Of a DNA stretch of 64,000 nt, positions 2,721 to 63,455 are shown piece by piece (positions within the stretch are counted from its first letter, which is position 1; every line of letters starts with the position of its first letter). The stretch is from Streptomyces lunaelactis. Its GTDB lineage: Bacteria > Actinomycetota > Actinomycetes > Streptomycetales > Streptomycetaceae. A program made the translations under genes and the position numbers. The notes beneath the pieces are model-generated. The model saw only the letters and a list, made by a program, of their open reading frames with translations. It ran no database searches and was not told the origin of the DNA. The DNA lies in contig NZ_CP026304.1 in the NCBI RefSeq assembly GCF_003054555.1, positions 1,550,001 to 1,614,000 of the forward strand, read 5' to 3'.

Positions 2721-2745
2721 GTCCGGGGTTCGGGGCGGAGCCCCG
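2721..2745. repeat. GC-rich intergenic repeat, copy 1
   Basis: The core GTCCGGGG-TT-CGGGGCGGAGCCCC belongs to a family seen four times in this window (2721, 23629, 40631, 50459), always near gene 3' ends. Similar CGGGGCTCCGCCCCGG elements are common between Streptomyces genes. This copy lies between the bldD and nusB terminators. Confidence 0.6.
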
Positions 2746-2762
2746 ACGGGGCGGCCAGGACA

Positions 2763-2815
2763 TGCACCAGGCCCGAAGCCCAGGACTGTTCGTCCTGGGC
2801 TTCGGGCCTGGTGCA
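2763..2815 (-). terminator. strong hairpin at the 3' end of the nusB operon
   Basis: A perfect 24-bp inverted repeat (2763-2786 with 2792-2815) has a 5-nt loop. It starts 18 bp past the nusB stop. With the bldD hairpin 75 bp away it separates two converging transcription units, and it could act in both directions. Confidence 0.85.
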
Positions 2816-2832
2816 GCCGTCCGGCTGCCCGG

Positions 2833-3267
2833 TCAGTCGCGGTCGCGCCGCAGACTCGGCTTGAGGTCCTTGAAGCGGCCCAGCAGGCCGTTCACGAACG
2901 ACGGGGACTCATCGGTGGAGAACTCCTTGGCGAGTTGCACCGCCTCGTCGATCACCACCGCGTCCGGGGTCTCGTCGACCCACACCAGCTCGTACGCACC
3001 GAGCCGGATGATGTTCCGGTCGACAACCGGCATCCGGTCGATCGTCCAGCCGACGGCGTAGGTGGCGATGAGGTCGTCGATCCGGTCCGCGTACTGCGCG
3101 TACCCCTCGACGAGCTCCATGGTGTACTCGCCGACCGGCGGCTGCCGGTCGTCGCTCCGCGCGTGCCGCACCCAGTCCGCGAGGACCGTCTGCACGGACG
3201 CCCCGCGCTGGTCGGCCTCGAAGAGGATCTGGAAGGCCCGCTTACGGGCCTTGTTCCGGGCAGCCAC
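2833..3267 (-). CDS. nusB: transcription antitermination factor NusB
   Basis: NusB pairs with ribosomal protein S10 (NusE) on boxA RNA to support rRNA antitermination. The 144-residue protein is all-helical, begins with the basic ARNKARKRAFQILFEAD motif and ends with the family's FVNGLLGRF segment at about residues 125-133. Translation starts at GTG (3265-3267), only 2 nt after the efp stop, so it is coupled to efp. It is the last gene of the minus-strand aro-pepQ-efp run and is followed by a 24-bp hairpin. Confidence 0.96.
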   Translation of the reverse strand: MAARNKARKRAFQILFEADQRGASVQTVLADWVRHARSDDRQPPVGEYTMELVEGYAQYADRIDDLIATYAVGWTIDRMPVVDRNIIRLGAYELVWVDETPDAVVIDEAVQLAKEFSTDESPSFVNGLLGRFKDLKPSLRRDRD

Positions 3268-9549: not shown

Positions 9550-10380
9550 CTAGCTCTGTGCGAGGGCCCGCTCCCCGGCCTCCCTCATGACGCTCAGGGG
9601 CGCGGGCGAGCGGCCGGTCATCTGCTCGACCTGGAGTACGGCCTGGTGGACCAGGAGGTCGAGGCCGCCGACGACGGCTCCGCCCCGCGCGGACCAGCGG
9701 GTGGCCAGAGCCGTCGGCCATGGCTCGTACAGCACGTCGAACAGCGTCCCGGGCCGCTCGGGCACCTCGGCCGCGAGTTCGTCGGTGGTGCCGGCCGGGG
9801 TGGTGGCGATGACCAGCGGTGCCCGCAGGGCCTCGCCCGCCTCCGCCCAGTCGGCGATACGCACATCGACGCCGAGCCGCTCGCCCCAGCCGCGCATCTC
9901 GGCGGCCCTGGCGGCACTGCGTACGTACGCGGTGACCGGTCCCGTACAGATCCGCGAGAGCGCGGCGAGCGCGGACGACGCCGTCGCGCCCGCACCCAGC
10001 ACCGCCGCCGACTCGGCCTTGTCGACGCCCCGCTCGCGCAGTGCGGCGATCATGCCGGGGATGTCGGTGTTGTCGCCGAGCCTGCGGCCGTCCTCGGTGA
10101 AGATCACCGTATTGACAGCCTCCACCGAGGCCGCGGTGTCGCTGACGCTGTCGAGCAGCGGCATGATCGCGCGCTTGAGGGGCATGGTCAGCGACAGCCC
10201 GGCCCAGGAGCCGTCGAGGCCCTCGACGAATCCCGGGAGTCCGGCCTCGTCCACCTCGAAACGGTCGTACGACCAGTGGGTGAGACCGAGTTCCGCGTAG
10301 GCCGCTCGGTGCAGCACCGGAGAGAGCGAGTGGGCGATCGGCGATCCCAGGACCGCCGCGCGCTTCGTCGGGGTACTCAC
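9550..10380 (-). CDS. aroE: shikimate dehydrogenase
   Basis: AroE reduces 3-dehydroshikimate to shikimate with NADPH. The 276-residue protein has the substrate-binding GSPIAHSLSP motif near residues 12-21, the SLTMPLK segment with its catalytic lysine, NTVIF, and the nucleotide-binding VLGAGATASSA turn. The start is GTG 10378-10380, overlapping the mltG stop (GTGA). It is coupled to mltG rather than to the downstream aro genes, as in many actinobacteria. Confidence 0.96.
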   Translation of the reverse strand: MSTPTKRAAVLGSPIAHSLSPVLHRAAYAELGLTHWSYDRFEVDEAGLPGFVEGLDGSWAGLSLTMPLKRAIMPLLDSVSDTAASVEAVNTVIFTEDGRRLGDNTDIPGMIAALRERGVDKAESAAVLGAGATASSALAALSRICTGPVTAYVRSAARAAEMRGWGERLGVDVRIADWAEAGEALRAPLVIATTPAGTTDELAAEVPERPGTLFDVLYEPWPTALATRWSARGGAVVGGLDLLVHQAVLQVEQMTGRSPAPLSVMREAGERALAQS

Positions 10381-12110
10381 TGCCCGCTCTTCTCCTGCTC
10401 CGCCTCGTACTTCTTGCGGTTCCGCTCGTGCTCCGCGTTGGTGACCGCGAAGAGCGTCTTGTCCTCGGTGATCGACACGAAGTAGTACCAGGGGCCTGGC
10501 GTCGGCTTGAGCGACGAGTTGAACGCGTCCAGGCCCGGGTTCGCGATCGGCCCCGGCGGCAGACCCTTGACGTTGTACGTGTTGTACGGATCCTTGAGCT
10601 TCCGCAGATCGTCGACAGCACCGACGTCCAGCGTGGACTCGCTCTTGATGTAGTTGATCGTGGAGTCGAACTCGAGCCGTCCGACCGTCTCCAGATTGTT
10701 CGGCTTGAGACGGTTGTAGACGACCCGCGAGACCTTGTCGAAGTCGTGCTTGTACTTGCCCTCGGCCTGCACGAGGCTCGCGACGGTGAGCACCTGGAGC
10801 GGCGACTTCAGGCCCAGCCTCTCGGCCTCGGCCTTGAGGTCCTTCTTGCCGAACTCGGCGTTTGCCTGGGCAACCATCTTCTGCAGCACTGCTTCCGGCT
10901 TCATGCCCTTGGCGACGGGATAGGTCGCGGGGAAGAGGAAACCTTCGAGCGGGTCCTTGATGTCCGGGTTGTCGTCGGCCCAGTCGGGCAGTCCGAGCGT
11001 TTTCGCCTTCGCCTTCGCGACGGCCTTGGTGGTGCCCACCTTGACCTCGAGACGTTTGTCGACCTGCTCGTAGACCCAGGAGTTGCGCTTGCCCGGGGGG
11101 ACGATCAGGTTGTTCCGGCTGGCCGGATCGAGCATCAGGTCCACGGCGTTCTCGCCGGACATGCCCTTTTTCAGGATGTAGACGCCGGCCTGGATGCTCT
11201 TGCCGTCGGCCGCCGAGACGAACGCGCCCGAGCTCTTGACGACCCCGGCCTCCTTCAGGATGCTGCCGATCTCTCCGAGGCCCGCGCCCTTGGGGATCTC
11301 GACCTGTGTGGAGCCACTGCCGCTGCCGCTGAAGTCCTCGGCCGCGCCGAACTGGCCCTGCCAGAACTGGTAGCCGAAGTAGCCGACCCCGCCGAGGCCG
11401 CCCGCGAGAACCAGCGAAACGACCAGGCACGCACAGCCGTTGCGGCTCTTCTTCTTGCCCTTGCCGCGGCGTTCACGCCCGCCGCCCCGGCGCGACTCGC
11501 GCGGGTCGTCGTCGTATTCGCCGTCGTCGTCCCGGCCGTCGTCGCCGGTGAAGAAGGGGTGGGTCTCCTCCTGGGGCGCCTCGGCATCCCAGTCGGTCGT
11601 GGGCTCGGGCTCGGCCCGGCGCCGACTCGGGGGCTGCGGCGGCGGGTACGCCTCGGGAGTGCCGTAGTAGTCGGCATTCTCACCGCTGTAGCCGGGCTGC
11701 TGGCCGTCGTAGGGATCGGGCCGGCCGGCTCCGTACGGCATGGCGGCCTGCTGGCCGGTGTCCCAGCCGGTGTTGTACTGCTGCTGGTTGTACTGCTGCT
11801 GCTGGTACTGCTGCTGTTGCTGTTGCTGCTGGTTGTACTGCTGCTGTTGCTGCTGGTTGTACTGCTGCTGCTGTTGCTGGTTGTACTGCTGTCGCTGCTG
11901 TCCGTTGTACTGCTGCTGCTCGTTGTACTGCTGGTAAGGGTCCTGCTGAGTGCCGTACTGCTGCGGCTGCTGCGGGTCCTGCTGCTGCGGCTGGCCGCCG
12001 TACGGAGTCTGGCCGGCTGCGGCCTGCTGTCCTCCCCATCCCTGGTCCCCGTACAACGGGTCCTCGGGATGCCACGGTTCGGAGCCGGGGCTCCGGCCAT
12101 ACTCAGTCAT
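10377..12110 (-). CDS. mltG: endolytic murein transglycosylase MltG (YceG-like), poly-Q N-terminus
   Basis: MltG cuts nascent glycan strands at the membrane and so sets their length. The 577 residues are: a cytoplasmic low-complexity tail (1-225) with a glutamine-rich QQQQQYN array at 40-122 and an acidic stretch near 190-205; a transmembrane helix at about 226-248; a LysM-like region; and the YceG catalytic domain with EGFLFPATYP (389-397) and ASLVQAEG carrying the conserved glutamate E450. Most bacterial MltG proteins are about 340 residues, so the cytoplasmic tail is a large extra. The start is ATG 12108-12110; the stop overlaps aroE. Confidence 0.93.
   Translation of the reverse strand: MTEYGRSPGSEPWHPEDPLYGDQGWGGQQAAAGQTPYGGQPQQQDPQQPQQYGTQQDPYQQYNEQQQYNGQQRQQYNQQQQQQYNQQQQQQYNQQQQQQQQYQQQQYNQQQYNTGWDTGQQAAMPYGAGRPDPYDGQQPGYSGENADYYGTPEAYPPPQPPSRRRAEPEPTTDWDAEAPQEETHPFFTGDDGRDDDGEYDDDPRESRRGGGRERRGKGKKKSRNGCACLVVSLVLAGGLGGVGYFGYQFWQGQFGAAEDFSGSGSGSTQVEIPKGAGLGEIGSILKEAGVVKSSGAFVSAADGKSIQAGVYILKKGMSGENAVDLMLDPASRNNLIVPPGKRNSWVYEQVDKRLEVKVGTTKAVAKAKAKTLGLPDWADDNPDIKDPLEGFLFPATYPVAKGMKPEAVLQKMVAQANAEFGKKDLKAEAERLGLKSPLQVLTVASLVQAEGKYKHDFDKVSRVVYNRLKPNNLETVGRLEFDSTINYIKSESTLDVGAVDDLRKLKDPYNTYNVKGLPPGPIANPGLDAFNSSLKPTPGPWYYFVSITEDKTLFAVTNAEHERNRKKYEAEQEKSGQ
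11772..11933 (-). repeat. in-frame CAG/CAA repeat coding poly-Gln/Tyr-Asn units in mltG
   Basis: About seven imperfect units of the form (Gln)2-8-Tyr-Asn lie at residues 60-113 of MltG. The unit length varies (QYN, QQQYN, QQQQQYN), the pattern expected from slippage or unequal crossing-over. All changes keep frame. It is coding, not an intergenic array. Confidence 0.85.
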
Positions 12111-16334: not shown

Positions 16335-16949
16335 TCAGCGGGCGTAGTACTCGACGACCAGCTGCTCGTCGCAGATGACCGGAACTTCCTTGCGCTGCGG
16401 GTCACGGTCCAGGCGGAACGCCAGGGCCTTCAGGTTGACCTGCAGGTAGCGCGGGGTCTCGCCGTCGGCGGCGAAGCCACCCTCACGCGAGACCTGGAAG
16501 AGCGACTTCTCGCGGCTGCGCTCGCGGACCATCACGACGTCGTCGGGACGGACGCGGAACGACGGCTTGTCGACCTTGCCACCGTTGACCTCGATGTGGC
16601 CGTGGACGACCATCTGACGGGCCTGGTAGATGGTGCGGGCGATGCCCGAACGCAGGACCAGGGCGTCGAGGCGGCGCTCGAGCTCGATGACGAGCGCGTC
16701 GCCGGTCTTGCCCTCGGCCTTCTTGGCGCGGTCGTAGGCACGCGCCATCTGGCGCTCGCTGATGTCGTACTGGGCACGCAGACGCTGCTTCTCGAGCAGA
16801 CGGACCTTGTAGTCAGAGTTCTGCTTGCGGCCACGGCCGTGCTCGCCCGGCGGGTAGGGGCGGGCTTCGAAGTACTTGACAGCCTTCGGCGTCAGCGCGA
16901 TACCGAGCGCGCGTGACTTCTTGACCTTGGGACGCGACTGGTTAGGCAC
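16335..16949 (-). CDS. rpsD: 30S ribosomal protein S4 (zinc-free type)
   Basis: S4 nucleates assembly of the 16S 5' domain. The 204 residues contain the S4 RNA-binding region [31 protein letters not shown] and the C-terminal [16 protein letters not shown]. The N-terminus has no Cys-x2-Cys zinc knuckle, so it is the C-minus form that does not need zinc. The start is GTG (16947-16949) with GGAGGT upstream. It stands alone, away from the rpsM-rpsK-rpoA cluster. Its start codon is 56 bp from the divergent DUF2470 gene, and an iron box lies in that gap. Confidence 0.98.
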
Positions 16950-16972
16950 GTTCTCCAGACCTCCGTTGTAGG

Positions 16973-16991
16973 TTAGGTTAGGCTCACCTTA
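16973..16991. promoter_or_regulatory. iron box (DmdR/IdeR-type operator)
   Basis: TTAGGTTAGGCTCACCTTA matches the 19-bp actinobacterial iron box TTAGGTTAGGCTMACCTAA at all but one position. Its two 9-bp arms agree at 7 of 9 positions. It ends 14 bp before the ATG of the DUF2470 gene and just ahead of its AGGAG ribosome site, so occupancy by iron-loaded DmdR1 should block that gene. It is also 24 bp upstream of the rpsD start codon. Confidence 0.8.
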
Positions 16992-17005
16992 CTCAAGGAG
17001 ATCGC

Positions 17006-17827
17006 ATGTCTCGCCCTGGGAACACCAAGCGCATCACGGACAGCACAAAGAACACCGACGCTTCTGAGAACGTCGAGGCGACGGAGGTCCGATCAGCTCA
17101 TGGTCAGCCGCGTCCCAGCGGGCTTGAAATCACTCGGATGCCGTCAGCAGCCGAGCGCACACGAACTCTCGTACAGAGTACATGCTCCGCGGTGCTGCTC
17201 ATCCCGGGGCTGGACGGGGCCCGTCCCGAGCAGCTGGCGCCGGAGGCCCGGGTCGTGGGGCCCGACGGTGAGGTGTTCCTGCTGTTTCCCGCCGACTCAC
17301 CCGCGGTACGGGCCGCCACGCACGCGCAGGACGACGAACTGTCCGCTGTGCTGGAGCTCACCGATGTCGCACCGGTCTCCGTGCCCCATCGCATCCGCGG
17401 CCGCGCCTGGGTCTCAGGCTGGCTCACCTGCGTACCCGGGCTGGCCGAGCCCGGCGGCATGATGCTGCGGCTCGAGGTGGGCGAGGCGAGCGTCGACGAT
17501 CTGTGGGGCGCCGAGAACGTCGAGCCGGAGGAGTTCACGCGGGCATCCGTCGATCCCCTCGTGGGACACGAGACCGAGCTGCTGCAGCACCTGCACTCCA
17601 CGCACAGCGAGCAGGTGCAGGGGCTGTGCGGGCTGCTCGGCGAGAAGGCCGAGGTGTACGAGAACGGGCAGCGGGCGGTGCCACTGGCGCTGGACCGGTT
17701 CGGGCTGCGGGTGCGGTTCACCGGGGAGCGGTGCTTCGACGTGCGCTTCGACTTTCCCTCGCCGGTGCGCGATCTCACCGAGCTGCGCCGGGCGATGCAC
17801 ACGCTCTTCGAGGCCGCGTCACACTGA
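17006..17827 (+). CDS. DUF2470 protein, predicted haem/iron utilisation
   Basis: A 273-residue protein. The N-terminal two thirds resemble a split-barrel/FMN-binding-like region (VLLIPGLDGARPEQLAPEARVVGPDGEVFLLFP). Residues about 188-270 form a DUF2470 domain (VGHETELLQHLHSTHSEQV), a domain found at the end of HugZ-type haem-utilisation proteins. The ATG follows AGGAG at 6 nt. An iron box sits directly upstream, which strongly suggests expression when iron is scarce. Whether it degrades haem is unproven; no haem transporter is adjacent. It converges on rarA with a 43-bp gap. Confidence 0.85.
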   Translation: MSRPGNTKRITDSTKNTDASENVEATEVRSAHGQPRPSGLEITRMPSAAERTRTLVQSTCSAVLLIPGLDGARPEQLAPEARVVGPDGEVFLLFPADSPAVRAATHAQDDELSAVLELTDVAPVSVPHRIRGRAWVSGWLTCVPGLAEPGGMMLRLEVGEASVDDLWGAENVEPEEFTRASVDPLVGHETELLQHLHSTHSEQVQGLCGLLGEKAEVYENGQRAVPLALDRFGLRVRFTGERCFDVRFDFPSPVRDLTELRRAMHTLFEAASH

Positions 17828-62997: not shown

Positions 62998-63070
62998 GCG
63001 GACGTGGCTCAGTTGGTAGAGCATCACCTTGCCAAGGTGAGGGTCGCGAGTTCGAATCTCGTCGTCCGCT
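62998..63070 (+). tRNA. tRNA-Gly(GCC)
   Basis: A 73-nt cloverleaf with acceptor GCGGACG/CGTCCGC, anticodon loop TTGCCAA (GCC, reads GGC) and T arm GCGAG-TTCGAAT-CTCGT. The discriminator is U. CCA is not encoded. It is first in a five-tRNA array. Confidence 0.97.
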
Positions 63071-63103
63071 CGATGGGGGAGCTTCCCGAACCCCAGCACT
63101 CCG

Positions 63104-63177
63104 GGTGGAGTGGCCGAGAGGCGAGGCAACGGCCTGCAAAGCCGTCTACACGGGTTCAAATCCCGTCTCCACCTCCA
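63104..63177 (+). tRNA. tRNA-Cys(GCA)
   Basis: The cloverleaf body is 63104-63174 with acceptor GGTGGAG/CTCCACC, anticodon loop CTGCAAA (GCA) and the cysteine discriminator U. CCA (63175-63177) is encoded, unlike the neighbouring tRNA-Gly. Confidence 0.97.
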
Positions 63178-63178
63178 A

Positions 63179-63250
63179 GGACGATTAGCTCAGCGGGAGA
63201 GCGCTTCCCTGACACGGAAGAGGTCACTGGTTCAATCCCAGTATCGTCCA
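63179..63250 (+). tRNA. tRNA-Val(GAC), copy 1 (GGACGAT acceptor)
   Basis: A 72-nt cloverleaf with anticodon loop CTGACAC (GAC, reads GUC). The acceptor stem is GGACGAT/ATCGTCC. It begins one base after the tRNA-Cys CCA. The body is identical to copies 2 and 3, but the acceptor stem differs by compensating changes. CCA is not encoded. Confidence 0.97.
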
Positions 63251-63269
63251 CTGGATCCGCAAGGATCAC

Positions 63270-63341
63270 GCGCGATTAGCTCAGCGGGAGAGCGCTTCCC
63301 TGACACGGAAGAGGTCACTGGTTCAATCCCAGTATCGCGCA
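63270..63341 (+). tRNA. tRNA-Val(GAC), copy 2 (GCGCGAT acceptor)
   Basis: A 72-nt cloverleaf with acceptor GCGCGAT/ATCGCGC and the same anticodon, D and T arms as copy 1. CCA is not encoded. The spacer to copy 3 contains two short repeats of the form GTACCACG-AAGATCG. Confidence 0.97.
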
Positions 63342-63383
63342 CGCAGTACCACGCAAGATCGCTGTACCACGAAAGATCGTCCC

Positions 63384-63455
63384 GCGCGATTAGCTCAGCG
63401 GGAGAGCGCTTCCCTGACACGGAAGAGGTCACTGGTTCAATCCCAGTATCGCGCA
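63384..63455 (+). tRNA. tRNA-Val(GAC), copy 3
   Basis: Identical over its 72 nt to copy 2. Here the bases after the discriminator A are CCA (63456-63458), so the 3' end may be encoded. It is followed within 6 bp by the array terminator. Confidence 0.97.

Follow-up and report, generated by a model that had tools for sequence, protein, structure and literature searches.

An iron box between rpsD and a DUF2470 gene in Streptomyces, and a possible iron-controlled exchange of ribosomal protein S4 in actinomycetes

The rpsD/DUF2470 locus

The window, by which we mean the whole stretch of 64,000 nucleotides analyzed here, contains two divergent genes that share a gap of 56 bp (16950..17005). The rpsD gene (16335..16949, minus strand) begins with GTG at 16949, and a DUF2470 gene (17006..17827, plus strand) begins with ATG at 17006 behind the Shine-Dalgarno motif AAGGAG (16995..17000, plus strand); the gap and this motif can be read directly. 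The gap also holds a predicted DmdR/IdeR-type operator, or iron box, at 16973..16991 on the plus strand. This near-consensus 19-bp palindrome, TTAGGTTAGGCTCACCTTA, has 2 mismatches to TTAGGTTAGGCTAACCTAA, which we take to be the DmdR/IdeR iron-box consensus, and 23 bp lie between it and the rpsD start. With up to 3 mismatches allowed, nothing in the window matches except this one site, read on its two strands, and the number expected by chance is 0 (100 dinucleotide shuffles). A sequence-only reading of the locus had called the site a near-perfect iron box, and the counts bear this out.

Across the 8.57 Mb genome, the same tolerance yields 16 matches (both strands counted), compared to 0 for the reversed control. 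The scoring matrix was built only from 15 published DmdR1 sites, which the accessible text of the source assigns to siderophore clusters (PMC7174319); it was applied to the DNA ahead of each gene, to a maximum of 200 bp, and the score cut-off was 13. The window box scores 33.1; 4360 first-order Markov resamples of such upstream stretches reach 11.7 at most. The shuffles, the reversed control, and the resamples rule out a chance match as the origin of the box. A DtxR-family repressor domain is found in the same genome (E = 1.4e-19). In a family scan of 10 ORFs adjoining 7 other box loci, we find a PLP decarboxylase, a siderophore-interacting protein, an FecCD permease, and a siderophore-type periplasmic-binding protein; the iron role of the remainder (SBP_bac_5, TauD, ATP-grasp, SBP_bac_6, and two without a family) is not obvious. 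The motif is found at iron genes of a genome that carries the repressor gene, with only some of the 10 ORFs being of the siderophore type.

The DUF2470 product matches PF10615 in its C-terminal residues 191-265 (30.5 bits, cut-off 22). Its AlphaFold model has a mean pLDDT of 86.3, with residues 1-27 below 50, and combines a split barrel with the DRI domain. The best structural match is haem-binding MSMEG_6519 (5bnc), and plant At3g03890 and GluTR-binding protein are also recovered. With both the DUF2470 domain and the split-barrel fold present, the modeled protein is by likeness a HugZ/GBP-like haem protein of the DUF2470/DRI group. Judged by its sequence, the window box is a DmdR-type site of the usual kind at a haem-related gene, which supports the earlier proposal that it is placed to control DUF2470. 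In S. coelicolor, the available account of the DmdR1 regulon names the HugZ-like gene SCO0799, and its main text mentions neither DUF2470 nor rpsD (PMC12161575). A DUF2470 gene with an upstream iron motif is listed for S. griseus, where the accessible part of the report does not state adjacency to rpsD (PMC8914203). M. tuberculosis Rv3839 is likewise a DUF2470 gene, with IdeR-dependent induction under iron limitation, but it differs in forming an operon with rv3840, and the available text draws no link to S4 (PMC13258150).

The window S4 has a single cysteine, residue 193, and lacks the four N-terminal cysteines, in agreement with its earlier description as the zinc-free form. A search of the genome for a four-cysteine (C+) S4 found none; the best match is the window rpsD itself (43%), the only S4 gene found. 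It lies away from the alpha-operon genes and, having neither the N-terminal Cys quartet nor an alpha-operon location, resembles the cysteine-free C-(IV) S4 paralogues. Because it is the sole S4 gene of the genome, rpsD is unlikely to be strongly repressed by iron in this strain.

An Rfam scan of the window returned tRNAs and nothing else; five tRNA genes are clustered at 62998-63455 (plus strand). An ORF at 10377-12110 (minus strand), which we guess to be MltG-like, has a long Gln/Asn-rich N-terminal stretch.

The box and the upstream DNA in Streptomyces

The sequence-only reading had pointed to an alignment of the gap across Streptomyces genomes, and this comparison ties the box to DUF2470. 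Our set comprises 80 rpsD loci: 52 with a full divergent DUF2470 gene, 26 with none, and two with a partial one. The box is present in 52/52 loci of the first kind (scores 26.5 to 34.6) and in 0/26 of the second (-19.4 to -7.3). The two partial cases (L069 and L114) were kept apart from these counts. Their DUF2470 can be recognised over no more than the first 61 and 67 residues, and their boxes are weakened to 15.6, above the cut-off of 13, and 7.8. The start-to-start distance between rpsD and DUF2470 is 56 in 42 of the 52 loci, 57 in nine, and 55 in one. Streptomyces loci L318-L329 were scored and left out of the counts, their DUF2470 status not being established. On the Streptomyces tree, DUF2470 changes six times; the box followed in 5.0 of 6 independent pairs and never went the opposite way, and the tree-aware sign test gives a median p of 0.0625, above 0.05.

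All 57 DUF2470 hits in a sample of relatives were also inspected. At up to 3 mismatches, the box accompanies 18/18 Streptomyces copies that adjoin rpsD and 32/37 fetched stretches around stand-alone copies, and it lies upstream of rpsD in 2/2 cases from family f3 with DUF2470 on the same strand. Two further stand-alone copies have a box at 4 mismatches, and the fetched stretches of three others (L012, L133, and L143) show none at that tolerance. In the same sample, 17/17 Streptomyces rpsD loci without adjacent DUF2470 show no box, and rpsD is full-length in each, as it is in the 26 boxless loci above. Since its presence tracks DUF2470 in these loci, the box seems to be retained for DUF2470 in Streptomyces.

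Approximately 185 bp upstream of rpsD, overlapping the N-terminal DUF2470 codons (17005..17190, minus strand), are unusually conserved. Third-position identity is 0.92-0.94 over DUF2470 codons 31-60, versus 0.56-0.82 in other blocks. In the protein model, residues 31-40 have low confidence and residues 41-60 do not, so protein constraint may explain part of the conservation. In L069 and L114, the equivalent of 17005-17190 persists and the remainder of DUF2470 is unrecognisable. The stretch could be the promoter and leader of rpsD; possible hairpins on the minus strand show thin covariation (4 of 59 pairs).

A different stretch of about 250 nt is conserved upstream of rpsD in L104 and 20 other DUF2470-less Streptomyces loci (about 2721-3000). 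Over the 21 sequences, 12/67 predicted pairs change on both sides, and some helices covary. Rfam has no match to this stretch in L104 or L082, and scans of L104, L042, L082, L134, and L195 return only a sub-threshold Guanidine-II hit (E = 0.65, L042) away from rpsD. The stretch is possibly an S4 autoregulatory RNA.

Actinobacteria with two S4 genes

Some actinobacteria have two rpsD genes, one four-cysteine (C+) and one cysteine-free (C-), and at least 32 genomes among the matches listed carry both with an intact C- copy. At eight C+ loci, the bases upstream look by eye like the tail of rpsK, which places these copies in the alpha operon. In the first 30 genomes with two copies, the C- copy scores 14.2 to 37.1 in 29, with its box 14 to 49 bp ahead of the start codon; the exception is G037 (-11.1). 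All 30 C+ copies read score -11.5 or less and have no box. Of the two-copy genomes found later, G297 is boxed (37.1, 33 bp) and G413, like G037, shows no box upstream of its C- rpsD. Among the matches listed, the iron box is present at the C- copy in 30/32 genomes, versus 0/30 C+ copies read. The arrangement of the genes and the cysteine pattern are direct observations, as are the sequences and their conservation; six C- proteins of two-copy genomes still have a single cysteine near the N-terminus (residue 22 or 23). Most Streptomyces searched have no C+ S4. It is still present in G139, G284, and G008 (L260, L261, and L264), whose C- copies are boxed.

Left out of the counts were G172 (broken C- S4), G296 (N-terminally truncated C- S4), G043 and G046 (remnants), five loci with a cysteine-less S4 nearer the C+ form and no box (L158, L235-L237, and L241), and L266, a repeat of L202. 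Among the remnants and broken copies, an iron box lies near L287 (G043) and L265 (G172), and none is seen at L286 (G046) and L290 (G296).

A DUF2470-like gene adjoins 47 of the 95 C- loci, and all 47 have the box. In six of these (f20), the neighbor is related by eye only, and the one scanned (L207) has no Pfam match over the cut-off. The 29 boxed two-copy C- genes include 24 that also adjoin a DUF2470-like gene, which in two instances is co-directional and downstream; this leaves few clean cases, all from f3, f4, and f34. Partnerless C- loci, among the matches listed, have a box in 5/6 two-copy versus 2/42 single-copy genomes. With G297 and G413 the two-copy figure becomes 6/8, and the fetched stretches of these eight loci contain no DUF2470 profile match. 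In G045, the order is a dehydrogenase-like ORF, the box, C- rpsD, and DUF2470, with all three genes pointing one way; in G297, tRNA-Met, the box, and rpsD follow one another on one strand. Because the upstream gene is co-directional with rpsD in both genomes, no divergent gene accounts for the box there. In G039, G041, G042, and G049, the divergent neighbor resembles an NAD-dependent epimerase (by Pfam, scanned for L150 only); DUF2470 is located elsewhere with its own boxes, and rpsD has a separate one.

Over the 95 C- loci, tree-aware sign tests give a median p of 0.25 for C+ presence and box and 0.125 for partner and box; for C+ presence in partnerless loci only, the median p is 1. Genomes of f19 with only a C- S4 are not predicted by a simple rule: 12/12 examined keep a full or weak box (L182-L184, L187-L193, L197, and L199), five scoring above 13 and seven 4.6 to 11.0, with palindromes 31-44 bp before rpsD and with no DUF2470 detected in 9/12. 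The divergent rpsD/DUF2470 pair with a common box is spread over f1, f15, f19, f30, f39, and f42, which suggests that this arrangement is old.

The metal of S4 and the role of the box

C+ cysteines 9, 12, 26, and 31 align to the S4 chain of 10px and 1hnw with no gap across the motif, a chain that we take to be from Thermus thermophilus. An Fe4S4 cluster on uS4 was confirmed by long-wavelength data (PMC6555806), and T. thermophilus is stated as the source of the cluster-binding protein (PMC10450194), each according to the accessible text. By this analogy, the relevant metal of S4 is probably that of an Fe4S4 cluster and not zinc. The sequence-only reading had made metal independence of S4 a theme of the locus; the absence of the cysteines stands, and the zinc probably does not, since Thermus uS4 binds Fe4S4. 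The C+ and C- forms of S4 were described by Chen, Roberts and Luthey-Schulten in 2009 (PMC3087516), whose accessible text reports that, wherever a genome has two divergent S4 genes, the C+ one sits in the alpha operon, and names Salinispora and Frankia EAN1pec as two-copy. That C- S4 is a zinc-sparing paralogue, with the iron box reflecting metal cross-talk, would accord with the older literature, which termed the S4 cysteines a zinc finger (PMC3087516). We consider this quite improbable, given the Thermus cluster and the 2009 study, which in its available parts reports that Zur sites were sought near C- S4 paralogues and none found. Our own scan with five Zur patterns (15 positions, reversed patterns as control) points the same way. 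Upstream of 30 two-copy C- genes, the best matches have 5-8 mismatches, as do the reversed controls (8 genes do better than their control, 16 the same, and 6 worse). The window rpsD has no Zur box upstream (best 6 mismatches of 15, control 7), and in L182-L241 the best matches have 5-8 mismatches and the controls 4-8, with some loci 1-3 better than control.

Another explanation leaves S4 unrelated to iron: the box would serve DUF2470 or another divergent gene everywhere, and C- rpsD would hitch-hike in an old pair. The 47/47 boxed C- loci with an adjacent DUF2470-like gene fit this, as does the disappearance of the box along with DUF2470 in Streptomyces. It is nevertheless unlikely in view of G045 and G297, whose upstream genes are co-directional with rpsD, of the four genomes in which rpsD and a distant DUF2470 each have a box, and of the excess of boxed partnerless loci in two-copy genomes. 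The sequence-only reading had further proposed that iron-loaded DmdR also road-blocks Streptomyces rpsD, coupling ribosome assembly to iron. At 23 bp from the rpsD start, the box would perhaps lie inside the leader if transcription covers the conserved block upstream, but the single-copy S4 gene of the window genome and the lack of a box in all 26 and all 17 Streptomyces loci without adjacent DUF2470 make such a block very improbable. What persists of the proposed link between S4 and iron concerns the relatives with both S4 forms, where 30/32 C- copies are boxed.

We favor, with a probability of roughly two in three, an account in which IdeR/DmdR controls C- S4 as a replacement for use in iron starvation and the Streptomyces box now belongs to DUF2470. 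Weighing against it are the boxless G037 and G413, the small number of clean cases, the tree-aware tests, all of which stay above 0.05, and the boxes of the f19 genomes with only a C- S4. C- rpsD would originally have been, and in many actinomycetes would still be, an iron-repressed paralogue. During iron shortage, C- S4, which would need no Fe4S4, would replace the four-cysteine alpha-operon S4, in parallel to the Zur-controlled C- paralogues that replace zinc-binding ribosomal proteins. For actinomycetes with two S4 genes, it appears fairly likely that IdeR/DmdR derepresses the cluster-free S4 in iron starvation, that 30S subunits can then be made without an Fe4S4 protein, with iron spared or even released from old ribosomes, and that Streptomyces fixed the switch by dropping the cluster-bearing S4. 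Apart from rare exceptions, Streptomyces would have lost the four-cysteine gene and made C- S4 constitutive, perhaps via the upstream promoter and leader; with no C+ copy in most species, rpsD had to escape strong iron control. That the box lies beside rpsD in Streptomyces would have historical reasons. When iron is plentiful, Fe-loaded DmdR/IdeR on the box would keep the DUF2470 promoter off, and when iron is short the haem-handling DUF2470 protein would be produced. We infer from sequence the binding of the repressor, the iron response, the use of C- S4 in ribosomes, and the presence of a cluster in actinomycete C+ S4.

Zur-controlled C-/C+ paralogues are described for S14, S18, L28, L31, L33, and others in B. 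subtilis, M. tuberculosis, and S. coelicolor (PMC3087516, accessible text). The arrangement is alike in that a metal-binding copy has a cysteine-free counterpart governed by a metal-responsive repressor site. It differs in having a Zur box, whereas here we find an iron box, and the protein is S4, with a motif that holds Fe4S4 in Thermus. Like such paralogues, the window S4 is without the cysteines that bind metal in the C+ form; a C+ copy beside the C- one is absent from the window genome and present in at least 32 others. The C- rpsD genes share their gene class with the C-(IV) S4 paralogues of the 2009 study, as its available parts describe them, and its main text contains no word starting with "iron", whereas an iron box is found here (PMC3087516). 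The accessible report of IdeR sites in S. erythraea names no ribosomal protein (PMC8464063). A DtxR prediction that includes rpsD in C. diphtheriae (PMC524172, accessible text) concerns a distal gene in the secY-alpha operon and is a different case. Our literature search, with few subscription papers within reach, found no report of an iron-regulated S4 paralogue.

Zinc-controlled swapping of ribosomal proteins is established, and an iron-controlled swap would be a new branch, concerning the assembly-initiating protein S4. If true, it would explain for actinomycetes how C- S4 paralogues are regulated, a point left open in 2009, and would suggest a reason why a ribosomal Fe-S protein requires a substitute.

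A third N-terminal pattern of S4, with three cysteines at residues 11, 19, and 24, occurs in other classes of the phylum (L340, L342, and L344-L347).
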